IMG/VR virus record: IMGVR_UViG_3300031862_000774
Location: 1 to 55,101 of that record
Source of the DNA: a virus
DNA: 55,101 bases
Strand: one strand, 5' to 3'
Each line of letters starts with the position of its first letter. Position 1 is the stretch's first letter. Under the pieces are notes generated by a model that searched no databases, was not told the DNA's origin, and worked only from the letters and a program-made list of their open reading frames with translations. The position numbers and the translations under genes are program-made. Below, piece after piece: positions 3,138 through 43,620 of this stretch.

Positions 3138-3140
3138 ACG

Positions 3141-3527: not shown

Positions 3528-3662
3528 GTATACACTGGGGGTAGCAAGCACATGTATACGACGGGGGTAGCGGTTTACAGGGGAAACCGAAAACAGCACA
3601 ATTTTTCGTCACCCCTTCTTGTATACACTGGGGGTAGCGGTCTTGTATACACTGGGGGGTGT
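3528..3662. repeat. Four iteron-like direct repeats, candidate replication origin
   Basis: The unit is GTATACACTGGGGGTAGC. Copies are at 3528-3545 (exact), 3554-3571 (two changes), 3621-3638 (exact) and 3645-3662 (diverged at its 3' end). They form two pairs, 26 and 24 bp apart. The GTATAC core is palindromic and the rest is asymmetric, as in initiator iterons. They follow the Rep-like gene at once. From 3663 to 3871 I see no gene, only moderately AT-rich sequence before the next ORF. Confidence 0.6.
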
Positions 3663-3871
3663 TGCTTTTGATTTTAGGACTCAGCCAATGATAAACCAAA
3701 AAGCGAGTAAAGAGATCGCCTCCGTCGGCCTCTCAAGTCGCACTGGATTCGCGCCACACGCTGGACTACTTGTCCATATTTTCCCCCTGATATCCGGGAA
3801 ATTGACGGGATTATTGACGTGTTCGATAAATAAAGATAAGGCTAACTTATTGCAAATAAAAGGCTTATGAA

Positions 3872-4414: not shown

Positions 4415-4417
4415 AGA

Positions 4418-4705
4418 ATGAGTGGAACAACCGACAGACAGCGTCTTGGAGCTGTGCCCAAGAACTCGACGCAGGAGATTCGGGTTTCTGTGGGAGATTA
4501 CGGTGGGGTGCCCTATATCTACGCTCTCATTTGTTTGAGTGAAGAACCGCCCGAGACTGAGATGGAGCGGCATCCTGGGCTGACGATTCGGGCGCATACG
4601 CTTCGGCCTTTGATTCCGCTTCTCTCTAAGGCGCTCGAGGTTGCCGAGGCAAGGGAGAAGGCAGCGTGGGATGAAAGGCCGGAGGTACGGAGGCGGAGGA
4701 GATGA
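4418..4705 (+). CDS. PC4/p15-like protein, copy 2
   Basis: A 95-residue protein whose middle (EIRVSVGDYGGVPYIYALIC, a gap, then HPGLTIRAHTLRPLIPLLSK) follows the same strand-hairpin-strand-helix order as the PC4-like protein at 2772-3038, with weak sequence identity. It ends in an Arg-rich tail. The start is three bases after the preceding stop. A diverged paralogue in so small an element suggests two different ssDNA or promoter partners. Function is not proven. Confidence 0.4.
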   Translation: MSGTTDRQRLGAVPKNSTQEIRVSVGDYGGVPYIYALICLSEEPPETEMERHPGLTIRAHTLRPLIPLLSKALEVAEAREKAAWDERPEVRRRRR

Positions 4706-4887
4706 GGAAGGCGGAAAAAATAATTCTAACCCATGGCCTTGAAAGGGGCGTAACCAAAGAGGACTTAATAATAGGCGCTCCACTGGGCAATTCTTGCCCA
4801 AAGGCAAAAGAACAGACTTGGTATCTCGGGAGAACCAGGTTGGGGGTAATCCGCCCATGTTTTAAGTGGTGCATTTGCATCACTTAG
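4702..4887 (+). CDS. Small hypothetical protein, doubtful
   Basis: A 61-residue ORF overlapping the preceding stop as ATGA. The first 30 residues look protein-like (AEKIILTHGLERGVTKEDLI). The C-terminal end runs into an inverted repeat (4864-4885) and looks non-coding. It may be a real short gene or simply the non-coding leader of the terminase gene. Confidence 0.3.
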   Translation: MRKAEKIILTHGLERGVTKEDLIIGAPLGNSCPKAKEQTWYLGRTRLGVIRPCFKWCICIT

Positions 4888-4920
4888 ATTTTTGAAAGGG
4901 TCTCTCCCACGGGAGCGACC
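4864..4920 (+). promoter_or_regulatory. Two hairpins in front of the large terminase gene
   Basis: The first hairpin is AAGTGGTGCA (4864-4873) with TGCATCACTT (4876-4885), ten pairs including one G-U, followed by AGATTTTTG. The second is GGTC/GACC (4899-4902/4917-4920) around CTCCC/GGGAG (4904-4908/4911-4915). They could attenuate or terminate transcription entering the terminase gene. The T-tract after the first is short. Confidence 0.4.
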
Positions 4921-4941
4921 TCGGGCAAAGAAGGTGAAACA

Positions 4942-6474: not shown

Positions 6475-6755
6475 ACAAAGACAAACTAAAAAATCTGATC
6501 AAGGGATTGCTGAAAGAAAAAAAGACGACAGAGGAGACAGAGTTTGAACGCAAACGGCGAGAGTTCACAGATCGTATCAGCCATGGATATTCGCCATCCG
6601 CCGGGGAGGTTGCGAATCTGATCGAGGGCCTCACGGCTGACGGTTTTGATCGCCTGGGCCGAAAGGTCTCATTTATTGAACACGGGACGCCGGTCTTCGG
6701 CAGAAGAACGAAGCTTTCGGAGCCGCCTGTTTCCCTCACGGAAAAAAAGACTTGA
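6471..6755 (+). CDS. Hypothetical protein after terminase
   Basis: A 94-residue protein, ATGA-overlapped with the terminase stop and so part of the same operon. The N-terminal half is charged and helical, with lysine-rich LIKGLLKEKKTTEETEFERK. The rest has no motif that I recognise. Its position behind TerL would suit a small packaging or connector factor, but nothing in the sequence proves that. Confidence 0.6.
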   Translation: MNKDKLKNLIKGLLKEKKTTEETEFERKRREFTDRISHGYSPSAGEVANLIEGLTADGFDRLGRKVSFIEHGTPVFGRRTKLSEPPVSLTEKKT

Positions 6756-6781
6756 CATGAACTTGACACCTGTTTTATACT
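6752..6781 (+). promoter_or_regulatory. Sigma70-type promoter
   Basis: TTGACA (6752-6757), an 18-bp spacer and TATACT (6776-6781). A second TTGACA at 6763 is too close to the -10 box to pair with it. Transcription should begin near 6788, the A of the next start codon, giving a leaderless or nearly leaderless message for the HTH protein and then integrase. Confidence 0.65.
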
Positions 6782-6787
6782 AAGGGC

Positions 6788-6976
6788 ATGATCGAAATCA
6801 TTAGAGAACTCAAGCGCGTTATTCAGGAAAAGAAAATCAGTCCTGAGACGGCGGCATTATTCATCGGCGTTACGGGCCGGGAGGTCCGGCGCTGGCTTGA
6901 GGATAGGGTCATTCCGCTCCCGGAAAGCCGAAGAGCCATCCGGCGCGGACTTAGGCGAATCAGGAAAATTCTTTGA
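6788..6976 (+). CDS. Small helix-turn-helix protein before integrase
   Basis: A 62-residue protein with one HTH (SPETAALFIGVTGREVRRWL, about residues 18-37) and a strongly basic C-terminus (RRAIRRGLRRIRKIL). Size and placement fit a transcriptional regulator or excision factor controlling the integrase 10 bp downstream. Its message may be leaderless because the -10 box ends only six bases before the ATG. Confidence 0.6.
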   Translation: MIEIIRELKRVIQEKKISPETAALFIGVTGREVRRWLEDRVIPLPESRRAIRRGLRRIRKIL

Positions 6977-6986
6977 GAGGTGAGGC

Positions 6987-8135
6987 ATGAGAAACGAGAA
7001 AAACCTTGTCTTCATTCCGGCGGCGGATGGCAAACCGGCGCACTATCTCACAGAGATCACGCTGAATTATCGCCGGGTCCGGCGCTTTGCTGGACACACA
7101 AAAGAGGAAGCCAAGACATTTCTTGCCAAGCTGCGGATCGCGGCCAGGGAAGGGAAGGTCGAGGACCTGATCAGCCCGAAACCGGCAAGCGATACCTTCG
7201 GCGAATATGCCAGGGCGCTTCTGGACAGCGCCGAATGGAAGCAGAAACGGAGCGCAGCGCGAGACGAGGCTTCCCTCCGAGCGCTTAACCGCACGTTCAA
7301 GAACGTGCCACTCAGGGCGATCAGGCCGAATCTGGTCCGCGATTACATGACGGAGAGGATAAAGGCGGGCTTGCGACCGGCCTCGGTAAACAGGGAGCGC
7401 AGTCTTCTGGTCAGCATCCTCTATGCGGCCGTGGGAGATGGAGTAATCGAATCAAACCCGATCGGCCAGAAGGGAGTGAGGCGCCTTGAGGAGAATAACA
7501 GCCGTGAGCAGAGAATCCTTGAACTCGGCCTGACCGATAAAGACATGCGACGCCTAATCTCCTGTGCGGACCCGCGCACGCGGCCAGTCATCGAGATAGC
7601 ACTTCTCACCGGCATGCGGCTTTCTGAGATTCTGAGTCTCAAGTGGAATCAGATTGACCTCCCGCGGCGCCGACTCACGATCCCATTGACAAACTCGAAG
7701 AGCAAGAGAGAACGGACGATCCCGATCGGTGGGGACTTGCTTCGGGTACTCCTGGCGATCAAACGCCATGGCGAATATGTTTTCCCGAATGGCGGAACCC
7801 ACGTCAAGAGCATCCGAAAATCGTTCAGCGCGGCCCTGGAAGCGGCGAAGATCCCGGGCGGCCGGGAAAAGGGCATTGTCTTCCATGATCTCAGGCACAT
7901 CGCAGCCTCGCAGCTCGTCAGGGTGATCGATGTCGTGACGGCCTCCAGGATACTCGGCCATGCGTCGGTCGAGATGACCATGCGTTATGTCCACCCAACT
8001 GATGCGGACAAGCAAACGGCTCTCGAGGCCCTCGGCGAGTGGTTACGAGGACGTCAAAATCCCGTCAATACCTTTGAGAGAGGCTCCGGCCAGGAGCTTT
8101 CTGTGGCGGCGAGCTCATCCCGCTTGCTAAATTGA
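6987..8135 (+). CDS. int: Tyrosine recombinase / integrase (small element)
   Basis: A 382-residue protein. An arm-binding N-terminus and a core-binding domain (about 68-150) precede the catalytic domain with R211 (LLTGMRLSEIL), H300 and R303 (HDLRH), H325 (LGHAS) and Tyr334 (MRYVH). The full tyrosine-recombinase set is present, so it should be active. RBS is GAGAGGTGAGG. The gene points at tRNA-Arg, which begins 33 bp after its stop, and the presumed tRNA promoter overlaps the end of this gene. It is a different subfamily from the prophage integrase on the other side of the tRNA. Confidence 0.93.
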   Translation: MRNEKNLVFIPAADGKPAHYLTEITLNYRRVRRFAGHTKEEAKTFLAKLRIAAREGKVEDLISPKPASDTFGEYARALLDSAEWKQKRSAARDEASLRALNRTFKNVPLRAIRPNLVRDYMTERIKAGLRPASVNRERSLLVSILYAAVGDGVIESNPIGQKGVRRLEENNSREQRILELGLTDKDMRRLISCADPRTRPVIEIALLTGMRLSEILSLKWNQIDLPRRRLTIPLTNSKSKRERTIPIGGDLLRVLLAIKRHGEYVFPNGGTHVKSIRKSFSAALEAAKIPGGREKGIVFHDLRHIAASQLVRVIDVVTASRILGHASVEMTMRYVHPTDADKQTALEALGEWLRGRQNPVNTFERGSGQELSVAASSSRLLN

Positions 8136-8168: not shown

Positions 8169-8243
8169 GCCCCTGTAGCTCAGTATGGATAGAGCAATGG
8201 ATTCCTAATCCATGTGTCGCCGGTTCGAGTCCGGCCAGGGGTA
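8169..8243 (+). tRNA. tRNA-Arg (anticodon CCT)
   Basis: Complete cloverleaf. Acceptor GCCCCTG (8169-8175) pairs with CAGGGGT (8236-8242). D arm AGCTC; anticodon stem ATGGA/TCCAT with loop TTCCTAA, anticodon CCT at 8204-8206; T arm GCCGG TTCGAGT CCGGC. Discriminator is A8243; CCA is not encoded. Its 3' side faces the leftward prophage integrase, the classical arrangement for integration into a tRNA 3' end. Confidence 0.95.
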
Positions 8244-8302
8244 CTCCACTTTCCCTTTAGTATCAGCTATTTGCGGCCAGGGGGCCCTTTCGGGTCCATG
8301 TG

Positions 8303-8608: not shown

Positions 8609-9697
8609 TTAATCCCTCCTCGTTTTTTGAGTTAGGCGGCCGACTATCGGGCCGCCCGTTCTATCCATAAGCTCCACGGCCCTCCTTTTCCGGTCCGGGT
8701 CCGTGTGCGTGTAGAGCAGGCTCGTCATGGAGCTCGAATGGCCGAGCAGCTCGCTCACCGTGACCAGGTCCGCCCCTTTCTCCAGGAGCGCAGTCGCAAA
8801 GAAATGACGGAGCAGGTGGAAGTGGAAGGGGACACCGGCTCTCTTTGATATGAGCGCCGTGGTCCGTCGGAAGAGGCCGGGCCGGTCGCGGTTCGGGATG
8901 TAGAACACGAACTCCGAGCGGCGCGCCTGCCGGGCCAGGACAGCCTGCGCGGCCTGGTTCAGTGGGACCTCCCTTATCTTATCCCCTTTGCCCCGGACAA
9001 CGATTTCCCCGTCTTTAATGTCATGCCAGCGGAGGCCCAGGAGCTCCGCTTTCCTGAGGCCCGTATTCAGGGCGAACTGCACGAGGTCATAAAAGGCCTT
9101 CTGGAGCGGGGAGGCCGGCTTGTCGCTGATCGCCCGGGCCGCCTCCAGGACCTTCTCGAGCTCGGCCTCGGAGAGCGGCTTTACCGGCGAGGACTCCCGG
9201 AAAAACTTGACCTTTCGCAGCGGATTCGGCCCCGGGTAGAGACCCCAGTCCATCGCCCGATAGAACATCCCGCGCAGCAACTGCAGATAGCGGTTGAGCG
9301 TGGCCTTCGACCTGTCCGGCTTCCTTTTCTTCCCTTCCTTGACCGGATCATCCTTCCTCTCCTTGAGCCAGGCCCGGAGCTGCTCGATGTGGTAGGGCGT
9401 GACCTCGGAGAGCAGCGTGATCCCCGAAGCCTCGAAGAAGGCCTGGATTTTTGGCAGACGCTGCGCCTCCATGATCGCCGAGGCCGGTTTCGTGCTCCAG
9501 GCATAGTCCAGATACCGGCGGCAGAACTCCGAGAAAAGGATGTCGTCCTTCCGGGCCGCGGCCTTCAGCTTGCCAAGAACCCTTTTGGCTTGATCGAGGG
9601 CCTCGAAGTAGTTATCGGTTTTAAGTGACCGTCGATATCGCTTCTTTTCGACCCAGACATCGAGCCAGTAGAAGCGGCCGTGCTTGTGGAGGGCCAT
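8609..9697 (-). CDS. int: Tyrosine recombinase / integrase (prophage)
   Basis: A 362-residue protein from ATG 9697. A longer frame to 9751 would overlap the upstream gene; 9697 follows that gene's stop by one base and gives the usual start HKHGRFYWLDVWV of the AP2-like arm-binding domain. Core-binding domain about 50-150. Catalytic residues are R215 (NTGLRKAELL), H294 and R297 (HLLRH), H320 (LGHSS) and Tyr329. It is transcribed toward the tRNA 3' end and should catalyse integration there. Confidence 0.93.
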   Translation of the reverse strand: MALHKHGRFYWLDVWVEKKRYRRSLKTDNYFEALDQAKRVLGKLKAAARKDDILFSEFCRRYLDYAWSTKPASAIMEAQRLPKIQAFFEASGITLLSEVTPYHIEQLRAWLKERKDDPVKEGKKRKPDRSKATLNRYLQLLRGMFYRAMDWGLYPGPNPLRKVKFFRESSPVKPLSEAELEKVLEAARAISDKPASPLQKAFYDLVQFALNTGLRKAELLGLRWHDIKDGEIVVRGKGDKIREVPLNQAAQAVLARQARRSEFVFYIPNRDRPGLFRRTTALISKRAGVPFHFHLLRHFFATALLEKGADLVTVSELLGHSSSMTSLLYTHTDPDRKRRAVELMDRTGGPIVGRLTQKTRRD

Positions 9698-9698
9698 C

Positions 9699-10037
9699 CT
9701 ATGAGTCTTTTTTCTTGCTTTTCCTTTCGACTTTATAGTGGCTTTCCTCAAAAGAAGGCCCGATCACGGTACTGACCACATAGGTTTCGCCGATCCACCA
9801 TTGGCTCAATTTGATCATCGTGCTGTAGTGGAGGATCACCGCTCCATTTTCGAATTTTAGCGTCCACCAGCCGTACATACTGCCCGAGGGGCTCAGGGTC
9901 TCACCGCGACTCAGGTCCGGGCTGAAGACCGCATCTTTTAGGGCCGATTCGAACAGGACGGATTCCTTCTGCTCTTGAGCAATCAGAAAATTGAATAGAA
10001 TGAAGACTGTGCCTAAAAGAGCCGCACCTCTTCGCAT
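9699..10037 (-). CDS. Exported protein in the lysogeny operon (possible lysogenic conversion factor)
   Basis: A 112-residue protein with a signal peptide (MRRGAALLGTVFILFNFLIA, then QEQ as a likely cleavage position). The mature part has predicted beta strands with aromatic residues (YGWWTLKFENGAVILHY) and a Lys-rich tail. RBS is GAGGAG. It lies between repressor-operon genes and integrase, so it is likely expressed in the lysogen. No family is recognised; altering the host envelope is an inference. Confidence 0.65.
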   Translation of the reverse strand: MRRGAALLGTVFILFNFLIAQEQKESVLFESALKDAVFSPDLSRGETLSPSGSMYGWWTLKFENGAVILHYSTMIKLSQWWIGETYVVSTVIGPSFEESHYKVERKSKKKDS

Positions 10038-17720: not shown

Positions 17721-18178
17721 TGACATCTTTTTTGGCCAGGCCGTCCAAAGGCGACCATTCGCCCGGGGCAATCCGGCTATGCCTATTTATATCTTGCGCC
17801 GTTCTCGCTGTCATTATCCTCCTCGGCTCGCAGACCTACGTCTCAAAATTCAATCTTTTTAAGATCGCTTTTAAGGATCCCACCGAGTCGATCCTCATCC
17901 AATTCAGGAACGGGGATATCTACATTTACAGCACGCTGGATATAGGAGGGGTGACGGCCGACCCCGCCCGCATGCTTGACACCTTGACCAGGATAGAAGG
18001 GAAAAAGATATCGGACATCATCCAGATCACGCACAACCATTTTAGCGGCCGAACCTTCAACGAGACAGACAACGGGTTTCTCCGGTATTTCAAGGCCCAC
18101 GGTTTTACGGGGGATTTCAACATCTATCACACGGAATCGGAAACAACCGAAACAAAAAAGGAAAAAGGAGATAAATGA
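17720..18178 (+). CDS. Membrane-anchored protein with a possible JAB/RadC-like HxH segment
   Basis: A 152-residue protein from ATG 17720. A single transmembrane helix (LCLFISCAVLAVIILLGSQ, about 18-36) is followed by a soluble domain. Near the C-terminus THNHFSGRTFNETDNGFL resembles the HxH...D metal site of RadC/JAB proteins, one residue short and with Asn in place of Ser. It may be a diverged or inactive relative. The longer frame from 17621 overlaps the upstream gene and lacks a better start. Confidence 0.45.
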   Translation: MTSFLARPSKGDHSPGAIRLCLFISCAVLAVIILLGSQTYVSKFNLFKIAFKDPTESILIQFRNGDIYIYSTLDIGGVTADPARMLDTLTRIEGKKISDIIQITHNHFSGRTFNETDNGFLRYFKAHGFTGDFNIYHTESETTETKKEKGDK

Positions 18179-19845
18179 TGAAGCAAAATTATCGGGAGAT
18201 CCTGCTGGCCGACCTGGCGGGAAACCCCAGGAATCCGAGGAAGCAGTTCACCGGGCCGAAGTTCGACGAACTCACGGCGTCGGTCAAGGAGAAGGGCGTC
18301 ATCGAGCCGATCATCGTCAGGCCTAAGAAGTTCAAGAACACGAGCTTCGAGATCGTCGCCGGCGAGAGGCGCTACCACGCGGCGAGCCTGGCGGGGCTAA
18401 AGACGATCCCCGCAGTCATCCGGGAGCTCACCGATGAGCAGGCCTTCGACTTCATGCTGATCGAGAACCTGCAGCGCGAGGACCTGACGGAGTTCGAGGA
18501 GGCCGAGAGCTTCAAGGCCTACGTCGGGAAGCATGGCGAGGATGGGATCCCGGGCCTCGCGGAGAAGACGGGGATATCGCCGCAGTACATCCGCCGGCGG
18601 ATGGCTGTGCTGGCGCTCCCTGGGCAAGCACTCGAGGCTTGGAGGAAAGGCCGGCTCCGGTACGGGCACCTCGAGCAGCTCCTCCGGGTGAAGGCCTCGC
18701 CGAATTTCAAGGAGTTTTTCAGGCTGGCCATGGAGCAGGACCGGTGGGACGGCCAGACCACTGTCGAGGAGCTGAAGAGAAGGATCGACAATGAATCGCC
18801 GGCGCTCAGCCTGGCCTATTTCCCAATCACGCCGGAAGGCTGCGAGGCCTGCCCGAAGAACACGATGGTCCAGCGGGGCCTCTTCGGGATCGACGACGCG
18901 CAGAAGTCGCGCTGCCTCGACCCGGGCTGCTTCAAGAAGAAGCAGAACGACTGGCTCCTCGGACATTGGGATGAGAGCCCGCTTCGCAAAAAGTACGGGA
19001 CGACCGGGTTCAAGTTCAAAAACAAGATCGGCTATAACGACCACGAGAGCGTCAAGTCCTCTTTCCGGCCGGACGAGAAGTGCAAGGCCTGCCCCCATTT
19101 CCTGACGGTCATTGAGGATAGCGGAGAGGTTTCGACCTACGACGAGCAGGAGTGCTTTAACAAGGCCTGCCTGCGATCGCGGACAGCGAAGATGCGGGGG
19201 GATATCTCGGAGAGAGAAAAACAGGAGAGGAAGCCGGGCGACGTCCGGGTCTCCTGGCACGGCGAATATTTCCGTGACCTCTTTTTCGAGAAGCGACTGC
19301 CGGCGCGCCTCGCCTGTTTCGGTCCGACGTCGCAAGAAATGATAACCCTTCTTTTCGTGGCCGCGCTCCATGGCAATTCGGTCGCCCGGGATGCGATCTG
19401 GGAAGCGCTTAAGGTCAAATTCCGCGAGCGCTGGAATGAGGAGCGCCTATTCGGACGGATCCTGGCACTTCCCCATGCCGAGATCGACAAGCTCATCCCC
19501 AAAGCGGTCAAGGCGGTCGTCATGGATGGGCAGCACGTCGGCGATTACAGCGGCTTCGGGACGACGAACCGGTTCGCCGCGGCCAAGTTCCTGGGGATCG
19601 ATGTCGAGAAGGAGTGGGCCATGACCGAGGAGTACCTGCAGAAGAAGACCAAGGCGGAGATCATGGCAATCGGGAAGAAGCTCAAGATCTTCGCCGACGC
19701 GAAGGCCAAGGCATATCTCGCGAAAAACCTCAAGGGCAGGGAGCCGGGGAAGCTGAAGAAGGGCGAGCTCGTGGACCTGGTCCTCAAGTCGGGCGTGGAG
19801 CTCGTCGGCAAGGTGCCGGACGAGATCCTGAAGGCAACGAGGTGA
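18178..19845 (+). CDS. ParB/Sulfiredoxin-domain protein with cysteine-rich insert
   Basis: A 555-residue protein. The N-terminal ParB-like domain (about 1-110) shows NPRNPRKQF, then VAGERRYHAASLAGLKTIPA and LIENLQREDLTEFEEAESFK. An HTH (GISPQYIRRRMAVL) follows. The middle holds two clusters of cysteines (CEACPKNT, CLDPGCF, then CKACPHF and CFNKACL) that could bind metal. The C-terminus is helical. ParB-fold proteins bind DNA and may hydrolyse CTP or act as nucleases. Here it could organise or segregate replicating phage DNA. Start chosen at the second ATG of ATGATG. Confidence 0.75.
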   Translation: MKQNYREILLADLAGNPRNPRKQFTGPKFDELTASVKEKGVIEPIIVRPKKFKNTSFEIVAGERRYHAASLAGLKTIPAVIRELTDEQAFDFMLIENLQREDLTEFEEAESFKAYVGKHGEDGIPGLAEKTGISPQYIRRRMAVLALPGQALEAWRKGRLRYGHLEQLLRVKASPNFKEFFRLAMEQDRWDGQTTVEELKRRIDNESPALSLAYFPITPEGCEACPKNTMVQRGLFGIDDAQKSRCLDPGCFKKKQNDWLLGHWDESPLRKKYGTTGFKFKNKIGYNDHESVKSSFRPDEKCKACPHFLTVIEDSGEVSTYDEQECFNKACLRSRTAKMRGDISEREKQERKPGDVRVSWHGEYFRDLFFEKRLPARLACFGPTSQEMITLLFVAALHGNSVARDAIWEALKVKFRERWNEERLFGRILALPHAEIDKLIPKAVKAVVMDGQHVGDYSGFGTTNRFAAAKFLGIDVEKEWAMTEEYLQKKTKAEIMAIGKKLKIFADAKAKAYLAKNLKGREPGKLKKGELVDLVLKSGVELVGKVPDEILKATR

Positions 19846-29074: not shown

Positions 29075-30412
29075 ATGGAAATCAAACGTGTCCCGATCGA
29101 CCAGGTCGAGCCCTGGGAGAAGAATCCGCGCGGAATAAAGCGGAAAGACTTCGATCGGCTTAAGAAGCAGATCACGGAACTCGGGATTTATAAGCCGCTG
29201 GTCTGCACTCAGGAGAACGGCAGATATATCATCCTCGGGGGGAACATGCGGATCCGGGCCCTTAGGGAACTTGGCGCCCAGAAGGTCGATGTTTCGGTGG
29301 TCGAGGCGAAGACCGAGGCCGAAAAGCTCAAATACGCGCTCAGCGATAACGACCGCGCCGGGGAATACGATGATCAGGCCCTCGCCGAGCTTCTCTTCGC
29401 GAACCGGGACGGGATCGATCTCGAGGACTTCCGTATCGATATCGGTCCAACCATCTCTCTCGAGCGCCTTATGACAAGTTTCGGTCCGGACATCGCGGTA
29501 ACCGAAGAAGACATCGTCCCTGAGCCAGAAAAGACAAGCTCCACGCCGCGCGGCGCGCTTTTTGATCTTGGACCCCACCGCCTCCTCTGCGGCGATGCCA
29601 CCCAGGAATGGGCATACGCCGCCCTCATGGATGGGATGAAGGCCGACCTCATCTTCACCGACCCACCCTACAATGTGGCCTACAAGGGCTCTAAGCTCGG
29701 AACCATCGCTGGCGATGACATGACGGAAGAGGAATTTATAGAGTTTTCGTGTCGCTTCATGGCGCAACTCAAGGAGAACACAAAGCGGGGCGGAGCATTC
29801 TATATCTGCAGTGGCTATAGCTCCTATCCGGTTTTCCTATATGCCCTCCACCAAGCCGGATTGACCTTCTCGACTCCTATAGTTTGGGTCAAGAATAATA
29901 CCTCTCTCGGCTGGGGCGATTACCGGCATAAACACGAGATGCTTCTCAAGGGCCGTTCATCCCGCCAGAAAAAGAGCGCGCAACCTATCCTCTATGGCTG
30001 GAAGGGCGGACGCCATTACTTCCCAGAAAGCCGCTTCGAGGCCGACGTTTGGGAGATGAACCGTCGTGGCAGTTCGAACATGCTTCACCCCACTCAAAAG
30101 CCCCTCGGCCTTATCCAGCGCGCCATCCGTAATTCAAGCCGAAAAGGAGAGTGTGTGCTTGATCCATTCGCTGGTTCTGGCTCCACCCTGGTCGGCGCCG
30201 AACGGGAGGGCCGCGTGGCTTATGTTATGGACCTCGATCCACTCTGCGTAGACACGACCATCCGCCGATATGCCGCCCTCGGCGCACAGACGGAAGAAGA
30301 AATACGCCAGACCTGCCGCCTCGTGCCCATTCGAGGAGAACAGGGAAGGAAGCCCAAGCTAATGCAAGGACCGGCCCGAGATCGCGCAACGTCGGCAATC
30401 GTGGAGAGATAA
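29075..30412 (+). CDS. ParB-domain / DNA methyltransferase fusion
   Basis: A 445-residue protein. The N-terminal ParB/sulfiredoxin-like domain (about 1-100) shows WEKNPRGIKRKD and ILGGNMRIRALRELG. The methyltransferase domain has FTDPPYNVAYKG (motif IV, DPPY) before the SAM-binding VLDPFAGSGSTLVGAERE (motif I), the beta-class order of N4/N6 methylases. Likely protects or marks phage DNA. The ParB part may provide site recognition. Confidence 0.85.
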   Translation: MEIKRVPIDQVEPWEKNPRGIKRKDFDRLKKQITELGIYKPLVCTQENGRYIILGGNMRIRALRELGAQKVDVSVVEAKTEAEKLKYALSDNDRAGEYDDQALAELLFANRDGIDLEDFRIDIGPTISLERLMTSFGPDIAVTEEDIVPEPEKTSSTPRGALFDLGPHRLLCGDATQEWAYAALMDGMKADLIFTDPPYNVAYKGSKLGTIAGDDMTEEEFIEFSCRFMAQLKENTKRGGAFYICSGYSSYPVFLYALHQAGLTFSTPIVWVKNNTSLGWGDYRHKHEMLLKGRSSRQKKSAQPILYGWKGGRHYFPESRFEADVWEMNRRGSSNMLHPTQKPLGLIQRAIRNSSRKGECVLDPFAGSGSTLVGAEREGRVAYVMDLDPLCVDTTIRRYAALGAQTEEEIRQTCRLVPIRGEQGRKPKLMQGPARDRATSAIVER

Positions 30413-35107: not shown

Positions 35108-36442
35108 ATGTCTACGCAGGAAATCACCGTTGACCTCTCCCAGATCTACGACCCGCGGAGGAACCCGAAGCAGCTCCTCTTCCACCAGGCCCTGGAGACC
35201 TACAAGCTCTTCGGAGGCGCCATGATGGGGGGTAAGACGGCCGCCTTGATCAATGAAGGGATGGCGCTGAGCTTCGACTACCCGGGCAATTTCGGGCTGC
35301 TCATGCGGAAGACTTGGCCATCCTTTCGGGACACGGTCCTGCCTCAGCTCGAGAAGTTCCTGGATCGGCGGCTGGTCCGGGATTGGAACAGGTCCGAGAA
35401 GCTCATCGTTCTCTGGAATGGCTCGAGGATCCGGTATGGCGGGGTCGGGGATGCGCCCGATGACTGGCAGAAGTTCATGTCGGGCGAGTACGGCTGGATC
35501 GCCCTCGATCAGGCCGAAGAGTTTACGGAACAGGAGTTCCTCATGCTGGGGACCCGGCTCAGGCTCAACCTGCCGGGCCTACGGCCGTTCTTTCTCCTCT
35601 CCTGCAACCCGACGGAGGGCTGGATCAAGCAGCGTTTCATTGAGGCGATCCATCCGGACCATGTCTTCATCCCTTCCTTCTGGACGGACAATATCGCCAA
35701 CCTGCCGTTCGGCTGTATCGAGAGGATGCGCGAGCTTCTGCCCGAGGAGCTGCAGAACAGATATCTGAAAGGCGACTGGTCGGCGGTCGAAGAGTCCAAC
35801 AGCGTCTACCTCTACCTCAAGATCAAGGAGGCGATGGAGAGGAAGGTCGAGCGGTCGCTGCCCGTCGAGATCGGGGTCGACGTGGCGCGGTTCGGAGATG
35901 ACGAGACCGTCATCCCGCTTCGGGAGGGCGCGAAGGTCGAGATCTTCAGCCATGCCCGCGGGCACGATACGATGCGGACCGTGGGCGAGGTCTGGCACTG
36001 CGTTCAGGACCGGATCGTCCCGGTCTGGGGCAAGGGGGTCAGGGTCGCGGTCAAGGTGGACGCGGACGGCCTGGGCGCCGGCGTCGTCGACAGGCTCAAG
36101 GAGCTTCAAGAGGAAAAGGAAAAGGCCCTCGGGATAAAGATTGAGATCGTCGAGATCCACGGCAGCGCGAAGCCGAGGAATCCGATGATGTTCAAGAATC
36201 AGAGGGCCGAGATCCACTGGGGGCTCAGGGAGCTGCTCGACGATATCGCTCTGCCGCGCGACCCGATTCTGGCCGCCCAGCTCATCGCCATCAAGTACAA
36301 GCGCAATTCCGCAGGCCAGATCGAGATTGTCGACAAGGGGGAGATCAAGAAGAGACTTGGCCAGAGTCCGGATCGCGCGGAGGGGGTCATTTATGCCTTC
36401 GCCGAGGTCAAGCCAAAGGGAGTGAGCCATGTCTGTGTCTAA
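35108..36442 (+). CDS. terL: Terminase large subunit (prophage)
   Basis: A 444-residue protein. ATPase: FGGAMMGGKTAA (Walker A, K43), WIALDQAEEF (Walker B, D134 with E137/E138), LLSCNPTEGW coupling motif. Nuclease: GVDVARFGDDE (D258), VKVDADGLGAG and late acids. Packages DNA through the portal encoded next. Belongs to the PBSX-like large-terminase group by context. Distinct from the small element's TerL. Confidence 0.93.
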   Translation: MSTQEITVDLSQIYDPRRNPKQLLFHQALETYKLFGGAMMGGKTAALINEGMALSFDYPGNFGLLMRKTWPSFRDTVLPQLEKFLDRRLVRDWNRSEKLIVLWNGSRIRYGGVGDAPDDWQKFMSGEYGWIALDQAEEFTEQEFLMLGTRLRLNLPGLRPFFLLSCNPTEGWIKQRFIEAIHPDHVFIPSFWTDNIANLPFGCIERMRELLPEELQNRYLKGDWSAVEESNSVYLYLKIKEAMERKVERSLPVEIGVDVARFGDDETVIPLREGAKVEIFSHARGHDTMRTVGEVWHCVQDRIVPVWGKGVRVAVKVDADGLGAGVVDRLKELQEEKEKALGIKIEIVEIHGSAKPRNPMMFKNQRAEIHWGLRELLDDIALPRDPILAAQLIAIKYKRNSAGQIEIVDKGEIKKRLGQSPDRAEGVIYAFAEVKPKGVSHVCV

Positions 36443-37856
36443 ACCTGAGAAATCCAGGGTCTTCGTCTATACGAGCAAGAAAAAGCTTGTCCCCCAAAAG
36501 GAGCTGCGGAAGTTCGAGCTCACGAAGGACTCGAAGCAGGTCTCGGCGGAGGAGAAGCAGTTCTTCCACCTGGGCCTGGTCAGCCCGCCGTTCCCTCCGG
36601 AGTCATTCCTCCAGCTCATGGACTCGAACGTCTACTTCGACCGCTGCGTCCGGCAGATCGCCCAGGATACGGCCGGCCTTGGCTGGAAGATGGTCCTGAA
36701 GGAGGGGAAGGAGGAAGTCGACCAAGAGAGGCAGGAGATCGAGGCCTTTCTCCGGAAGCCGAACACGAAGCACCCGGATGAGTCCATGAGGGACATCATC
36801 CAGGCGTCCGTCATCGACCTCGAATCGGTCGGATGGCTCGGCCTCGAGGTCGTCCGGAGTCTGGGAGGGCAGGGCATGGAGCTCTATCACGTGCCGGCGC
36901 ACACCTTCAAGGTCCACAAGTCGAGAAAGAAGTTCTGTCAGCAGCGGAACCAGCAGAAGGTCTGGTTCAAGGCGTATGGCGAGAAGCTGGACATCGATAA
37001 GGATACCGGGGAGGCCGGGAAAGAGGGATTGAGCGAGGCGAAAAAGGCGAATGAGCTCCTGTACCATAAATCCTACTATGCCAAGTCCGATTATTATGGC
37101 GTACCGCCGATTCTGAGCGCCGTCGGCTCAGTCATGGCCTTGATCGGGATCCGGGACTATAACCTCGCCTTCTTCGAGAACTACGGAGTCCCGGCCGCGA
37201 TCGTTGTTCTCGAGGGTAACTGGGAGGAGGGCAGCGACGAGAAGCTCAGGGATTTCCTCGACACGGAAATCAGGAGATCTGAGAATGCTCATAAGACGGC
37301 CGTCCTAAGAGTGGCCGAGGGATGCAAGGCCACCTGGACCCCCCTTGTTACCGAAGTCAAAGAGGGGGCCTTCAAAATCTACCTCAAGATCCTGCGCGAC
37401 GAAGTCCTGGCGGCCCATTCCATGCCAGGCTACAGGATCGGGATCACGGAGACCGGTTCGCTCGGCGGGTCGACGGCCCGGGAGGCGACCGAGACCTACC
37501 TGTCCACGGTCGTGGAGCCGCTCCAGGAGACCTTCGAGGAGATTCTCGAAAAGCTCTTTCTCGACCGAGGCTGGGTCAATTACAGGGTCGAATTCGTGGA
37601 CATTGACGTCAGGGACATCGATGCGGAGGTCAAGCGCTGCGACATTCTCATCCGCATAGCGTCGATGAACCCGAATGAGGTCCGCAACCGGCTCTCGATC
37701 GGCGAACCCTACGAGGGAGGCAACCAGTTCTACATCGACTCGAGCCTGGTCCCCGTGGGCAGCGAGGGACTGGAGAAGGGGGATAAGTTCTCGGTCGCCC
37801 TCGATGAGCTGAGAAGGGGCCTGAGGAAATTGATCGATGAGCAAAAAGTTAGTTGA
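36429..37856 (+). CDS. Portal protein (PBSX/XkdE-type)
   Basis: A 475-residue protein with features of PBSX-family portals: FLQLMDSNVYFDRCVRQIAQ near the N-terminus, ELYHVPAHTFKV, YYAKSDYYGVPPILSAVGSV (clip/stem entry) and FENYGVPAAIVVLEG. It forms the dodecameric DNA gate. Overlaps TerL by 14 bp. Confidence 0.88.
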   Translation: MSVSKPEKSRVFVYTSKKKLVPQKELRKFELTKDSKQVSAEEKQFFHLGLVSPPFPPESFLQLMDSNVYFDRCVRQIAQDTAGLGWKMVLKEGKEEVDQERQEIEAFLRKPNTKHPDESMRDIIQASVIDLESVGWLGLEVVRSLGGQGMELYHVPAHTFKVHKSRKKFCQQRNQQKVWFKAYGEKLDIDKDTGEAGKEGLSEAKKANELLYHKSYYAKSDYYGVPPILSAVGSVMALIGIRDYNLAFFENYGVPAAIVVLEGNWEEGSDEKLRDFLDTEIRRSENAHKTAVLRVAEGCKATWTPLVTEVKEGAFKIYLKILRDEVLAAHSMPGYRIGITETGSLGGSTAREATETYLSTVVEPLQETFEEILEKLFLDRGWVNYRVEFVDIDVRDIDAEVKRCDILIRIASMNPNEVRNRLSIGEPYEGGNQFYIDSSLVPVGSEGLEKGDKFSVALDELRRGLRKLIDEQKVS

Positions 37857-38667
37857 GCTTCACGATCTTGTCGTCGCATTCCTGAAGCGGACCGGCTACA
37901 GGGAGCGGCAGCGCGCTCGGGCCCTCGCGGGCGAAGGGGGAGTCCGCAAGAAGCTCGAGTCGAGCGTCAGGGGATGGATCCAGTTCATGCGCCAGCAGGC
38001 CGTCCCACTCGAGGAGCCGGACGAGGAGAGGCTCCTGGACTGGAAGGAGATGGAAACGAAGGGCGGGCGTATGCTCCGGGCTGCCTACCTGGACATTCTG
38101 AAGACCTTGGCTGAGCGGGCGGGCGTCTCGAAGCAGGAGGCCGCCGGGGTGCTCAACACCCAGGCCGTCACCTGGGCCGAGCTCTTCGCCGCCAGGATCA
38201 TCAAGCAGATCATCGACGAGACGAAGAAGGCCGTGCGCTCAATCATCACTGCGGGACTCAAGCAAGGGCTGTCCATGCCGGCTATCAACATGCAGCTCCG
38301 TCCGATCATCGGGCTGAATGACCGCCTGGCCGGCGCAGTCAGCCGCTACTCGACCGAGCTTTTCACCCGCCCGAAGTGGGCCGGCCTGACCGACGAGGAC
38401 CGCTTCAGCCGGATCGAACGTTATGCCCAGAAGCTCCAGCGCTACCGGGCGGACAATATCGCCAGGACGGAAACGGCGCACGCGATGGACGAGGGGACGC
38501 TTTTCCGGTACGAGGAGTTCGGGGTGAAGGAAGCGGAAGTCCTCGCCGCTCCCGGCGCCTGCCCGGTCTGCGCGGCGCTGGATGGCCAACGCTATCCCGT
38601 GGCCGAGGCCCATGGGATCCTGCCGGTCCATTGCGATTGCCGCTGCGCCTGGGGGGCTGCGTCATGA
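37837..38667 (+). CDS. MuF/SPP1 gp7-like minor head protein
   Basis: A 276-residue protein. YRADNIARTETAHAMDEGTL is the MuF core motif and CPVCAALDGQRYPV with HCDCRCAW its metal-like C-terminal end. These proteins sit inside the capsid at the portal and aid assembly. Start overlaps the portal gene, stop overlaps the next start. Confidence 0.85.
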   Translation: MSKKLVELHDLVVAFLKRTGYRERQRARALAGEGGVRKKLESSVRGWIQFMRQQAVPLEEPDEERLLDWKEMETKGGRMLRAAYLDILKTLAERAGVSKQEAAGVLNTQAVTWAELFAARIIKQIIDETKKAVRSIITAGLKQGLSMPAINMQLRPIIGLNDRLAGAVSRYSTELFTRPKWAGLTDEDRFSRIERYAQKLQRYRADNIARTETAHAMDEGTLFRYEEFGVKEAEVLAAPGACPVCAALDGQRYPVAEAHGILPVHCDCRCAWGAAS

Positions 38668-41486
38668 AGATAGAAGACATCTCGGCCGAGACGATCAAAA
38701 AGGTGGATGACCGGGAGCTCCGCAACCTGCGCTTCAGGTTCATCCAGCTCTGGGAGGGGACCTTCTCGAAGAGACACGGGCCCGAGGTCGCCGATTTCCT
38801 GAGTCATTACAGGATCCTCATTGGCGAGATGAACAGTCGCGGGATCGAGAGGCAGAACATCTATGACATCGATCGGGAAGTTATGAAGGGCGTCCTCTAC
38901 GGCTTTTCTCCTCAGGCCCTCGATGAATTTGTTTATATCCCCGATTTTGTCTCGATTGGCGGCAGTTATGTAAATTCGCCAAAGGGCGCGAATGACATCG
39001 ATCTTGTTATCAGGAAGGAAGGCTGGGATGAAGGATTGATTTTAAAGCTCGGCCGGATTCTGAAGGAACTCGGAACGGATCGGCTGCATTTCGTCTGGTC
39101 GCAAACCGGTCCGCATAGCAGTTACATCCCCGTCTTCGACTTGGTCCTGCGGCCGAAGAACGGATTCCAGAGGGTGGAGGTCGACGAGGGGCGGATCGCC
39201 AAGGCCGACGGCACCCAGGATGGCGGGCCCGTGGACAAGACGTCGTTGACGTTGGGCCGGCCCTTCACGCCCCTCAAGTCGCGCGGCGGGTATGGTGAGT
39301 ACGAGTTCGCCGACATAGACGTCCTCTGGACGACCTGGGCCCAGGGGTACATCCCGGAGCCCGGCGTGGCCGTCGAGACGAAATTCGACGGATTCCGGAT
39401 CCAGGTCCACAAGAGGCGAGACGAGGTCAAGATTCTCTCCGAGGACGCCCAAAGGGACCTCGCTGACAGGCTCCCTGACGTTGTCAAGGAACTCGAGAGT
39501 TATCCTGGCGACTTCATCCTGGACGGTGAGCTTCTGGTCTATCTCGGGGATAAGAAGGTCGAGCGGAGGGACATGCCCTCTTATCTGACGACGAAGGAGC
39601 CCGGGCCATTCAAGGCCATCGTCGAGTGCTTCGACTGCCTGTGGCGGGATGGCAAGCCGCTGAATGACCAGCCGTGGATGGAGCGCCAGAAGGCGCTAAC
39701 GGAGCTCTTTGGGAAAGTCGACGAGAAGCTTGTCCGGCGGGTCCAGTCCTCCCTGACCCACAGGGAAGCCGATTTCCGATCAGCCGTGAAGCGATGCGCC
39801 GCCGTCGCGCATTCGGAAGGCGCGATGTGCAAGGTCGTGAATTCCGAATACCCCCTGGATGGCCACACGCAGGAGTGGGCGAAATTCAAGAACTTCAAGA
39901 GCCTGGCCGTGAAGGTGACCGGCAAGGAGGCCAAGGAGGGCGGCGGCTGGATCTACACGTGCGAAATCGCCCAGGGGATACCGATCGGCCGGACCTACGC
40001 GACGTCACTCGAGGCGAAGGTTGGCGACGTCATCGAGATAGCGGCCGCGGAAGTGAAGCACGACGAGAAAGAGGACAAGTTCACCTGGGACAACCCCATC
40101 CCGAGGGAAGTGAAGGCCGGGGGCACGGCGCTGACGACGAGAGAGCAGGCCCTGGCCCTGTCGCGGCTGGGCCGGACGGCGCAGAAGGCCGAGGGCAGGT
40201 TGACGTACGCGGCGGGGGACAAGGGCACGGGCATCGCCCAGGTCCACATCATGGGACTCGATGAGAAGCAGGTGGGGGAGCTCAAGAAGGTCGGGGACAG
40301 GATCCGGGTGGCCGCGGCTGAACCGGCGAAGCTCAGGGCCGTACTCTTGGGGGCGATCGGCAACGCCGGCGCGCACGTGGACATGAGGCTGAGGAAAGGG
40401 ACGGCGAATTTCTGGGAGGGCAACGAGATCTTCATCGGGAACCTCGAGGGGCTGCCGAAGCTCGACAAGCTCAAGAAGGAGGGCGAGAGCCTGCGCAGCG
40501 ACTGGAAGGTGCCGCACAAGGACGAGCCCCGGGGCGAGACCATCCAGGGTCCGCTCGGCTGGATGGAAGCCGGCGCCCGCCAGCCTGACATCTTCCAGCC
40601 TGGGGAACCAGGGGCCACCACCAACAAGTACGGCGCGATGATCAGGATAGACAAGTTCACTTGGACCATCTATTACGCCAAGGAGGACGGCCACGCCTAC
40701 AAATTCCACTTCGACGGCGGCGTCTATCTCGACGGAAACTTCCTCTGGGCCTATGTCCCGATGGCCGAGGGCCGGATGTGGATGGTCAGGCGGCTGGACG
40801 ATGACGACGACAAGCAGCCCATGGAGAAACGGGAGCACGATCCCGGGTACGTTGCCGAGACCGAGCGCATCAACGAGAACAAGGAGAAGCCCGAGGCCTC
40901 GAAGCCTCATGAGTTCAAGAGGGCCCAGTGGACGTTCCCCAACGGCCATCCTCGCTGCCTGATGTGCGGCCAGGAGGAGCCCATAGGCAAGGTCTGCAAC
41001 ATGCCAGCCGGCTGGTATAAGAGACGCGAATGGGACGATGAGGCCGGCTGGGCGGAGGAACGCAAGAAGCTCAGGACCGAGGGCGTCATCAAATCGAAGG
41101 AGCCGCTCGCCAGGCCGGTCCAAAAGGACCTCGAAGTCTTCATCTTCAAAGAGGACCAGCACATTGCCGGCGGCATCGTCTACGAACCGGACACAGTCGA
41201 CGGCCAGGGAGACTGGGCCTCGGAGGATGACATCCGGGAGGCCGAATATTACTTCATGGAAAACTCCCAGCAATTCAAGGTCCGCCACAGGGGGGAGCCG
41301 GACCCGACCATCCGGATCCTCGAATCCTTCCTCGCGCCGGCGGATTTCAAGATAAACGGCCGTTTCGTTAAGAAGGGCAGTTGGTATCTCACCCTCAGAA
41401 TCAACAACGAGGCGGTCTGGCAGCAAATCAAGGAAGGGAAACTCACCGGGTTCTCGCTGGCCGGGACGGCGATGGAAGAGGCCTGA
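38664..41486 (+). CDS. Nucleotidyltransferase - ATP-dependent DNA ligase - XkdF prohead protease fusion
   Basis: A 940-residue protein from ATG 38664 (overlaps the MuF stop); the longer frame to 38376 only shadows MuF. Domains: (1) residues 90-165, Pol-beta-type nucleotidyltransferase, SIGGSYVNSPKGANDIDLVI with D111, D113 and a third acid D159. (2) 235-410, covalent ligase core: ETKFDGFR (nucleophile K240), FILDGELLVY (E289), ECFDCLW, SEGAMCK (E385, K390), EWAKFKNF (K407, K409). (3) 412-485, OB-fold-like. (4) 486-715, unassigned, with QPGEPGATTNKYG. (5) 762-778, Cys/His knuckle. (6) 820-938, XkdF-like protease, VYEPDTVDGQGDWAS, H875, LTGFSLAG (S931). Only the last domain fits the location, between portal/MuF and scaffold. 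Proteolysis may release separate enzymes. Confidence 0.85.
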   Translation: MKIEDISAETIKKVDDRELRNLRFRFIQLWEGTFSKRHGPEVADFLSHYRILIGEMNSRGIERQNIYDIDREVMKGVLYGFSPQALDEFVYIPDFVSIGGSYVNSPKGANDIDLVIRKEGWDEGLILKLGRILKELGTDRLHFVWSQTGPHSSYIPVFDLVLRPKNGFQRVEVDEGRIAKADGTQDGGPVDKTSLTLGRPFTPLKSRGGYGEYEFADIDVLWTTWAQGYIPEPGVAVETKFDGFRIQVHKRRDEVKILSEDAQRDLADRLPDVVKELESYPGDFILDGELLVYLGDKKVERRDMPSYLTTKEPGPFKAIVECFDCLWRDGKPLNDQPWMERQKALTELFGKVDEKLVRRVQSSLTHREADFRSAVKRCAAVAHSEGAMCKVVNSEYPLDGHTQEWAKFKNFKSLAVKVTGKEAKEGGGWIYTCEIAQGIPIGRTYATSLEAKVGDVIEIAAAEVKHDEKEDKFTWDNPIPREVKAGGTALTTREQALALSRLGRTAQKAEGRLTYAAGDKGTGIAQVHIMGLDEKQVGELKKVGDRIRVAAAEPAKLRAVLLGAIGNAGAHVDMRLRKGTANFWEGNEIFIGNLEGLPKLDKLKKEGESLRSDWKVPHKDEPRGETIQGPLGWMEAGARQPDIFQPGEPGATTNKYGAMIRIDKFTWTIYYAKEDGHAYKFHFDGGVYLDGNFLWAYVPMAEGRMWMVRRLDDDDDKQPMEKREHDPGYVAETERINENKEKPEASKPHEFKRAQWTFPNGHPRCLMCGQEEPIGKVCNMPAGWYKRREWDDEAGWAEERKKLRTEGVIKSKEPLARPVQKDLEVFIFKEDQHIAGGIVYEPDTVDGQGDWASEDDIREAEYYFMENSQQFKVRHRGEPDPTIRILESFLAPADFKINGRFVKKGSWYLTLRINNEAVWQQIKEGKLTGFSLAGTAMEEA

Positions 41487-41743: not shown

Positions 41744-42349
41744 GTGGCCCGCAGACTGATGGACATCAAACCGAAAGAGGTCAGCCTCGTCGAGCGGCCC
41801 GCTATTCGCAAGAGATTCTATGTCACCAAGGAGGAACAAGACATGGACGAGTTAATTGCGCTTCTAAAGGCAATCGTAGGCGAGGCCTCCAAGGAGGAGA
41901 CCGAGGCTCTGAAGGCACTGGGCGCCGATGCGGTCGACGCCCTCAAGAAGGCGCTGAGCCTTCTGGGTAAATATGTCGCCGACTTCCCCGATGACGTGAA
42001 GACCGCGATCTCGACCCTGGCCAAGTTCGCGAGCTACGGCTACCCGGCCCCCAAAAAGGAGACAGATGAAGAGAAGAAGGCCAGGGAGGCCAAGGAGAAA
42101 GAGGAGAAGGACACGCTCGAGAAGAAGTTCGGGGGCATCGAGAAGCAGCTCCAGGACATCGCCGGCCAGGTCAAGAGGAGCTCCGAGGACCTCGCGGGGA
42201 AGGTGGACGCGGTCAAGCAGGTCGCCGACGGCCTGGAGACCCGAGTCAAGAAGGTCGAGGAGATCCCCGGGATCAAGAAGAGCCTCGATGGCCAGGACGG
42301 CGACCCGGAGCCGGGCAAGTGGCCTTCGTTCTTTCAGAAGGAGGAATAG
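41744..42349 (+). CDS. Putative capsid scaffold protein
   Basis: A 201-residue protein, GTG start. The N-terminus DIKPKEVSLVERPAIRKRF is typical of small proteins before phage capsid genes. The rest is helical and highly charged with a coiled coil (about 95-185), as in scaffolds. Ends 2 bp before the major capsid gene. It may be cleaved by the XkdF-type domain upstream. Confidence 0.65.
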   Translation: MARRLMDIKPKEVSLVERPAIRKRFYVTKEEQDMDELIALLKAIVGEASKEETEALKALGADAVDALKKALSLLGKYVADFPDDVKTAISTLAKFASYGYPAPKKETDEEKKAREAKEKEEKDTLEKKFGGIEKQLQDIAGQVKRSSEDLAGKVDAVKQVADGLETRVKKVEEIPGIKKSLDGQDGDPEPGKWPSFFQKEE

Positions 42350-42351
42350 CC

Positions 42352-43620
42352 ATGAAATCACCCAAACAACTGCTCTCTAAGGTAGCGATCCAGAAGGGGT
42401 TCTTCCCCTCGACCATCAATTTCACGGCCGAGGAGGCGGACAAGTTCCTGGACTACGTCATCGACCAGAGCGTCCTCAAAGACCACGCCAGGTTCGTCAA
42501 GATGGCGAAGTCCACCAAGAACGTCCGGGCCATCGGGCTCGGGACCGGCCGGGTGATGTGGCCGGAAGCCGCCTTCGATTCGACGAAGTACCAGACCGCC
42601 GGGACGGCGAACCTGATCGCCCTGACCTCGAAAAAGGCCCGGGGCGGGGTCAAAGTCCATGACGACGACCTCGAGGACAACATCGAAGGCGAGGCCTTCG
42701 TTGACCATCTCCTGCAGATGATCGCCAAGCAGATCGGGAACGAGCTGGCCGAGGCCTACTACAGCTCATACGCCACGCCGGACGGGCAGACCCCGAAGGA
42801 CATCTTCGACATCTGGAACGGCTGGCGCTACAGGATCCTCAACCAGACAAACCTGGTCACGGGGTCAGCAACCATCCTGGACGGCCGCAGCGCGAGCGAC
42901 TTCGCCTTGGCCAACGGGTACATCGCTGAGCAGAATCCCGCCGCTCCCTATAACTGGGAGTTCAAGTTCTCCAAGGCCCTGAAGAAACTCGCATCCAAGT
43001 ACAAGAGGCTGGGCCTCGAAAACTTCCGCTTCTTCGTCAACGACCAGCTCGAGCAGGATTACGTCGACTCCCTGGCTTCCCGGTCGACCATCGTCGGAGA
43101 CAAGGCCATTATCGAGGGCGGGGACCTTAAATTCGGAAAGGTCCCGATCGTGGGCTGCCCGCTCATGCCAACGAACCTGCCGGTGCCCGTGGCCAGTGGG
43201 GGAGACACGACAGTCGACGCTGATTCGGCTGCCGAGCAGAAGGTCCTCAACACCGCCGCGACCGACAATTTCACGGTCGGCGATTACGTCTACGTCTTCA
43301 AGGCAGGGCTCGAGTACAAGTCCGAGATCTGCAAGATCGCGTCGATTCAGGCCGGCATCTCCCTGACGATGGTGGACAACCTCGTCTGGGCGCACGCGGG
43401 TGCCGATGCCGAGACCGTCAAGGAGGTCACGCTCGACGGGGCCGACTGCATGCTCACGCACAAGGAGAACTTCATCATCGGGCTGGAGCGGGACATCAAG
43501 ATGGAGACCGAGAGGAAGGCATCCGAGGAGTCGACCTACTTCTTCTACTCCATTCGCTCCGACATCGCGGTCGAGAACCTGAACGCCGTCGTCTTCATCA
43601 AGAACCTCAAGATCCGGTGA
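42352..43620 (+). CDS. Major capsid protein (prophage)
   Basis: A 422-residue protein from ATG 42352 (RBS AGAAGGAGGAATAGCC), preferred over the in-frame start at 42319. HK97-like features: N-terminal helix, RVMWPEAAFDSTKYQTAG, VKVHDDDLEDNIEGEAFVDH and a long central region with an insertion (about 285-350, DTTVDADSAAEQ ... WAHAGAD) that may form a surface domain. C-terminal VENLNAVVFIKNLKIR. Only weakly similar to the major capsid protein of the small element. Confidence 0.85.
   Translation: MKSPKQLLSKVAIQKGFFPSTINFTAEEADKFLDYVIDQSVLKDHARFVKMAKSTKNVRAIGLGTGRVMWPEAAFDSTKYQTAGTANLIALTSKKARGGVKVHDDDLEDNIEGEAFVDHLLQMIAKQIGNELAEAYYSSYATPDGQTPKDIFDIWNGWRYRILNQTNLVTGSATILDGRSASDFALANGYIAEQNPAAPYNWEFKFSKALKKLASKYKRLGLENFRFFVNDQLEQDYVDSLASRSTIVGDKAIIEGGDLKFGKVPIVGCPLMPTNLPVPVASGGDTTVDADSAAEQKVLNTAATDNFTVGDYVYVFKAGLEYKSEICKIASIQAGISLTMVDNLVWAHAGADAETVKEVTLDGADCMLTHKENFIIGLERDIKMETERKASEESTYFFYSIRSDIAVENLNAVVFIKNLKIR

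Follow-up and report, generated by a model that had tools for sequence, protein, structure and literature searches.

The window analysed here is a whole 55,101-nucleotide stretch of viral DNA (IMG/VR record IMGVR_UViG_3300031862_000774, positions 1 to 55,101), and our subject is one open reading frame (ORF) of 940 residues in its head operon. An original prediction, made from the letters alone, had read this ORF as a nucleotidyltransferase (NTase) and a DNA ligase fused to a prohead protease, and had delimited it exactly: the ATG is at 38664, the stop codon ends at 41486, and the first 4 bp are shared with the end of the MuF gene. The ORF and its parts are as follows:

38664..41486, + strand: fusion ORF, 940 residues, in the order NTase, ligase, OB-like domain, HHDR domain, Zn knuckle, XkdF
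38664..39218, + strand: residues 1-185, helical N-terminus and pol-beta-type NTase motifs (motif conservation)
39363..39890, + strand: residues 234-409, ATP-dependent ligase nucleotidyltransferase domain (PF01068, Foldseek)
39897..40118, + strand: residues 412-485, OB-like domain after the ligase core (predicted beta strands)
40176..40829, + strand: residues 505-722, conserved HHDR domain (invariant H528, H571, D573, R575 and H677)
40827..41126, + strand: residues 722-821, linker with Zn knuckle (HPRCLMCG...VC)
41148..41477, + strand: residues 830-938, XkdF (Peptidase_S78_2, assemblin-like) maturation protease

DNA_ligase_A_M (PF01068) matches residues 234-409 with E 1.4e-23 (84.1 bits, gathering score 26.2), and the PHROGs profiles name the ORF both a head maturation protease (1.1e-33) and a DNA ligase (6e-20). 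Motifs I, III, IIIa, IV and V read K240xD242G243, E289, F323/D324, E385 and K407/K409; the covalent set that had been listed for this ORF (K240, E289, E385, K390, K407, K409) is complete and lines up across the alignment of relatives. In the AlphaFold model the ligase region is confident, residues 505-722 and XkdF are moderate, and the NTase is poor. The ligase fold was recovered: the best PDB matches of the fusion model are archaeal DNA ligases (Foldseek, 3e-17), and the alignments to DNA ligases extend over more than 320 columns. All curated NCBIfam DNA ligase equivalogs score under their cut-offs (e.g., TIGR02779, 76.6 versus 227.75 bits); thus, the ligase is divergent and lies outside the named subfamilies. 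The OB-like region has strands in the model, with IPREVKAGG where motif VI (RxDK) is expected, and the canonical motif is not evident. The original prediction had assigned an OB-like domain here, which holds for residues ~412-485; the stretch 486-760 is not one OB domain, since 505-722 forms a separate conserved domain.

The C-terminal protease is clear by sequence. PF14550 matches residues 830-938 with E 1.5e-25 and 90.1 bits, far above the gathering score of 24; the catalytic H875 is found in 24 of 24 aligned rows and S931 in 23, the remaining row being incomplete. XkdF is a peptidase of the assemblin-like type, and the model of residues 496-940 resembles many viral XkdF models in BFVD (Foldseek, E down to 1.7e-8). 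The NTase was recognized by its residues. The GS...DxD...D catalytic motif of the pol-beta superfamily is present in the window and in most relatives; D111, D113 and D159, as predicted, are joined by G100 and S101. The N-terminus of the window protein has zero Pfam matches, its model mostly has a pLDDT (predicted local distance difference test) below 40 and is of low confidence, and a PDB sequence search with the NTase returned only chance matches to abalone lysin; the homologous region of locus L022 scores 27.4 bits with DNA_pol_B_palm (Pfam cut-off 25). The predicted Cys/His knuckle lies at ~750-790; in some relatives it is lost or replaced, and in L022 it sits elsewhere in the chain.

The place of the ORF in the head operon, another element of the original prediction, is borne out by its neighbours:

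35108..36442, + strand: terminase large subunit (PF04466, phrog_2)
36429..37856, + strand: portal protein (PF04860, 2.5e-28)
37837..38667, + strand: MuF-like minor head protein (PF04233, 6e-8; 4-bp overlap with the fusion ORF)
41744..42349, + strand: scaffold-like coiled-coil protein (position, weak coiled-coil/scaffold matches, synteny)
42319..43620, + strand: major capsid protein (MCP) or virion structural protein (phrog_1623, 1.9e-53; synteny)

The gene order portal, MuF, fusion, scaffold, MCP is kept in about 20 contigs. An NTase, a ligase and XkdF in one ORF were found at 23 loci from 22 contigs besides the window (loci carry L numbers below; L005 and L042 belong to one contig, and L015 and L081 denote a single locus). 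A single-protein search for close relatives found none, and the nearest match in a deposited phage is a protein of ANMV-1 labelled 'ATP-dependent DNA ligase' (24% identity over residues 95-693). With the pairwise alignment to the ANMV-1 protein as the query, 24 IMG/VR loci were obtained, and further loci came from later scans; the group consists of poorly known tailed viruses. Among 50,697 deposited phage records, the NTase searched alone gave a weak ANMV-1 match only, and the 505-722 block searched alone gave no match. In three close pairs of relatives, the ratio of nonsynonymous to synonymous substitution rates (dN/dS) stays at 0.02-0.06 throughout the domains, which indicates strong purifying selection there. 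An assembly artefact, which the original prediction had proposed to recognize by the absence of the fusion from related phages, and a random ORF are both ruled out by the 22 further contigs, the synteny and the dN/dS values. The ANMV-1 gene AJP62005 (L002:1913-3193), labelled 'MutT-like phage hydrolase', scores as a portal (PF06381, 3e-22).

Comparison of the loci revealed two features beyond the original prediction, the extra 505-722 domain and a swappable enzyme cassette within a frame made of NTase and XkdF. The shortest relatives are NTase-XkdF alone, of ~310 residues, and 46 ORFs have this form with no cassette, mostly with a degenerate NTase. Elsewhere, the following parts stand between NTase and XkdF in several combinations: a SAM (S-adenosylmethionine) methyltransferase, one to three D12 adenine methylases, a metallo-beta-lactamase-like domain, the ligase and the 505-722 block. 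In L033, another stretch, ASCH-like by eye, takes the position of the ligase, and the contig has no PF01068 match. The window and L005 share 62% identity in the NTase, 75% in the Zn region, 59% in XkdF, 78% in MuF and 76% in MCP (the portal also falls within 59-78%, and the scaffold-like protein is at 58%), whereas the ligases share 34%. The pattern is opposite for the window and L010: 66.5% in the ligase and 62% in the OB region versus 47% in the NTase, 40% in XkdF and 51% in MCP, with the remainder at 40-53%. Similarly, L010 and L012 are 93% identical in MCP, 92% in XkdF and 88% in the NTase, with ligases at 37%. The ligase tree rejects a grouping of the window with L005 (approximately unbiased (AU) test, p=7e-42), and the MCP tree rejects a grouping of the window with L010 and L004 (AU p=4e-50); it should be noted that long branches meet in the ligase tree, and that the pairwise identities point the same way. 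Therefore, the constant NTase-XkdF frame stays with the head genes, and the enzyme cassette inside it is a cargo open to exchange.

Several relatives deserve separate mention. The longest, a head-operon protein of 2137 residues (L022:4395-10808), carries three tandem D12 adenine methylases, a SAM methyltransferase, the ligase, the HHDR block and XkdF. A second arrangement (L104, L095, L074, L084, L078) consists of a large ligase ORF followed by an NTase-XkdF ORF; the ligase ORF of L104 adds Dam and a weak metallo-beta-lactamase match, and the NTase of L084 is a separate short ORF. The XkdF ORF of L074 (L074:2742-5345) includes an intein-like stretch at ~57-390 that starts with CYDDKTEVYT, ends near GNC and has a weak LAGLIDADG match. 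Between MuF and the NTase-XkdF gene of L023 (L023:1390-5823) lie genes for a short-chain dehydrogenase, a zinc alcohol dehydrogenase and two pyruvate-dehydrogenase E1-like subunits, by sequence appearance metabolic genes.

The state of the NTase largely follows the presence of the ligase. We scored 63 NTase domains: where a ligase is present at the locus, the catalytic set is intact in 33 and lost in one, and at loci with no ligase 21 domains have lost it and eight retain it (Fisher, 2.8e-9). The sole loss beside a ligase is a second, degenerate NTase copy in L104, a locus that keeps an intact copy. Among the eight intact sets at ligase-less loci, L017 ends at a contig edge, L030 is masked, and L033, L015 and L081 retain the 505-722 block; the rest are L116, L043 and L101. 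A PF01068 ligase was not found elsewhere in the 25 ligase-less records, many of which are fragmentary. This association provides good but not decisive evidence that the NTase and ligase activities act together.

In the 505-722 domain, H528, H571, D573, R575 and H677 are invariant in all rows that cover them, and the H..HxDxR motif, noticed by eye, recalls the LigD 3'-phosphoesterase. Direct comparisons were negative: the PF13298 profile had no match in 10 records at E<=10, hhalign of the window-clade profile against five plasmid LigD sequences gave no match, and Foldseek with a model of pLDDT ~90 gave no PDB match at E<=0.001, the LigD phosphoesterase being absent from the 50 matches listed. 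When the divergent members L104, L095, L074, L084, L078 and L106 were added to the profile, hhalign placed the catalytic residues in register with those of LigD at E 0.002, and the score exceeded those of all 300 column-shuffled controls (300/300). The hhalign probability is only 14%, and the relationship to the LigD 3'-phosphoesterase is accordingly kept as suggestive and unproven.

Given this architecture, its conserved position and the intact catalytic residues, we lean cautiously towards the reading of the ORF as a modular cargo preprotein of the 'polyvalent' type that fills the slot of the prohead protease, is cleaved in the head, and has its enzymes ejected with the genome. Prohead proteases work inside the procapsid; therefore, a C-terminal XkdF would bring the attached enzymes in and free them by cleavage. 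The proposed steps are: (i) the XkdF domain, as the maturation protease, would enter the procapsid along with the scaffold, like other prohead proteases, carrying the N-terminal enzymes; (ii) at maturation it would cut itself and the scaffold, releasing NTase-ligase within the head; and (iii) NTase-ligase would be ejected along with the genome and would act on nicks, gaps or ends in the incoming DNA by processing and sealing them, this DNA being presumably the first substrate that enzymes carried in the head would meet. In such a division of labour, the NTase would add or edit nucleotides, the ligase would seal, and the HHDR domain might trim ends. DNA-acting or modifying enzymes also make up the rest of the cassette repertoire, which counts in favour of a cargo. 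Co-packaging, cleavage and injection, raised already in the original prediction, thus appear to be the best-supported mechanism, with repair as its proposed purpose.

A narrower form of this proposal we offer only tentatively, as a distinctly less probable one: within the wider system of cassette exchange, the NTase, ligase and HHDR domain, packaged as a single preprotein and injected, might form a virion-borne, protease-released DNA end-joining machine that repairs and circularizes the genome as it enters the cell, a Ku-independent counterpart of LigD. Two integrase genes of the window adjoin a tRNA; the element is therefore probably a temperate virus, for which circularization matters.

Several observations weigh against the cargo reading. 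In L074, L078, L084, L095 and L104 the ligase is in a separate upstream ORF, outside the XkdF protein, and in ANMV-1 and L024 the NTase-ligase protein has no detectable XkdF; thus, fusion to the protease is not obligatory. The ligases of L008, L012, L013, L019 and L011 read KLNG at motif I and have Ser instead of the motif III Glu, so the sealing chemistry of this clade may be changed; its ligase domains are under strong purifying selection where measured. Ku (PF02735) was not found in 17 records, many of them fragmentary. The scored NTases are related by descent, their tree implies about eight changes of NTase state, and only three independent pairs lie on well-supported branches; these are in the expected direction or tied, and are not significant.

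An alternative that we consider unlikely is that the fusion, cut early by XkdF or left uncut, works in the cytoplasm before packaging, in late replication, in recombination or in the sealing of nicks; being fused would then do no more than couple its expression to the late operon. No PF01068 ligase other than the fused one occurs in the window or in seven of nine related records (of the other two, one lacks such a ligase altogether and one carries a separate, T7-like ligase), and the fused ligase could therefore act as the general ligase of the phage; the separate ligase ORFs that several relatives have beside the XkdF gene fit the same role. However, ligases for replication are as a rule encoded among the early genes and not between the MuF and scaffold genes of a head operon, and the swaps with methyltransferases and metallo-beta-lactamase, together with the loss in many relatives, are a better fit to an accessory cargo.

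A function in RNA repair or anti-defence appears more doubtful again. Phage T4 Pnkp/Rnl repairs RNA cleaved by host anti-phage nucleases, and an injected or released NTase-ligase-HHDR protein could likewise mend tRNA or other RNA cut by such enzymes. A ligase, a nucleotidyltransferase and a possible phosphoesterase make up an RNA-repair toolkit as well; the weak RNA_ligase matches in L010 (5e-5) and L065 (2e-4) and the KxNG form of motif I in divergent clades are consistent with this, as is host defence being the supposed target of polyvalent proteins (PMC5512222). Against these stand the DNA_ligase_A_M scores, far higher than those of RNA_ligase in the same proteins, the archaeal DNA ligases as the best fold matches, and the KxDG and motif III Glu that the window retains. 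Little probability remains for a function during assembly, in which the fusion would stay at the portal or scaffold and mend nicks or gaps of concatemeric DNA during packaging with no delivery to the next cell: the gene adjoins portal and MuF, but methyltransferase and metallo-beta-lactamase cargo does not suit packaging repair. Finally, a purely structural NTase-XkdF frame with the cassettes as transient hitch-hikers under little constraint, to which the common cassette-less forms and their mostly degenerate NTases might point, is highly improbable given the dN/dS values in the ligase and HHDR domains of relatives, the invariant H/H/D/R/H set and the NTase residues kept where a ligase is present.

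Elsewhere in the window, the tRNA is a tRNA-Arg at 8169-8244, with the second integrase on its right (8609-9751, - strand). To its left (1-8135) lie a repressor-like gene, an HK97-type capsid gene (915-1991), a TerL-like gene (4942-6474) and the other integrase (6987-8135, + strand). The region has the appearance of two adjacent elements that share one tRNA as integration site, of which the left is compact and similar to a small capsid-encoding satellite. The genes at 18175-19845 and 29075-30412 encode one ParB protein and one fusion of ParB-N with an N6/N4 DNA methylase. Outside the viral collection, the closest head genes come from two bins, one of Aminicenantes (L030) and one of Pacearchaeota (L029); since each contig is short and could be misbinned, we claim no host.

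If the favoured cargo reading is true, these viruses stock their heads in advance with enzymes of DNA repair and DNA modification, which they make as part of the head maturation protease, and the source and targeting of head cargo become directly testable. The cassette series (ligase, methyltransferases, metallo-beta-lactamase or none) is a natural probe of the functions that a phage requires during the first minutes of an infection, and the NTase and HHDR domains are new enzyme leads.

The multi-enzyme phage protein with a C-terminal assemblin-like protease is known as a class. These polyvalent proteins, a predicted class of large phage proteins (Iyer et al. 2017, PMC5512222), were proposed to be carried in and freed by cleavage, and DdrB of P1 is processed before packaging (PMC5512222). 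The claim of the original prediction that no such phage system is described is thus too broad as to the class; it seems to hold as to the pairing, since the available part of that paper does not mention a DNA ligase or an NTase-ligase pair, a 'ligase' passage there being about RNA ligases (PMC5512222). Literature searches for ligase-protease or XkdF fusions, of incomplete coverage, found no description; in the literature searched, we did not find described a DNA ligase plus NTase in this class, a frame with an exchangeable centre, or the 505-722 domain. The fusion shares with the class unrelated enzymatic domains in one polypeptide, a place among the virion genes of portal-terminase phages, XkdF at the C-terminus (830-938 of 940) where the assemblin-like peptidase sits, and the pol-beta NTases and methyltransferases known there (PMC5512222). 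Unlike the fusion family, the class draws its NTases, according to the available text, mainly from firmicute conjugative elements (PMC5512222); the family, in turn, is without the typical ArdC-N, ParB or zincin domains and has a conserved NTase-XkdF frame with an exchangeable centre.

The C-terminal domain is a clear member of the XkdF family (PF14550) by sequence, catalytic His/Ser and fold; however, ordinary XkdF proteins are small, and here the domain makes up the C-terminal 120 residues of a multi-enzyme chain. Entries of PHROGs and BFVD have names that suggest methyltransferase-XkdF, RNA-ligase-XkdF and Zeta-toxin-XkdF fusions. The protein AJP62006 of ANMV-1, an archaeal virus of ANME (anaerobic methanotrophic archaea), has homologous NTase, ligase and HHDR domains and its gene directly follows the portal, whereas its identity is low and its C-terminus is the part with no detectable XkdF. 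Bacterial LigD, of non-homologous end joining, likewise joins a ligase, a nucleotide-adding enzyme and an H..HxDxR domain in one chain; in contrast, the polymerase part of the fusion is of pol-beta type rather than a primase-polymerase, its phosphoesterase membership is unproven, and no Ku accompanies it in the records searched. MuF polymorphic toxins are reportedly head-operon proteins whose enzyme part is exchangeable and which the virion is supposed to deliver. The fusion is likewise a head-operon protein with an exchangeable enzyme part; in contrast to these toxins, its variable part is internal, before the C-terminal protease, and holds no obvious toxins but DNA-acting enzymes.

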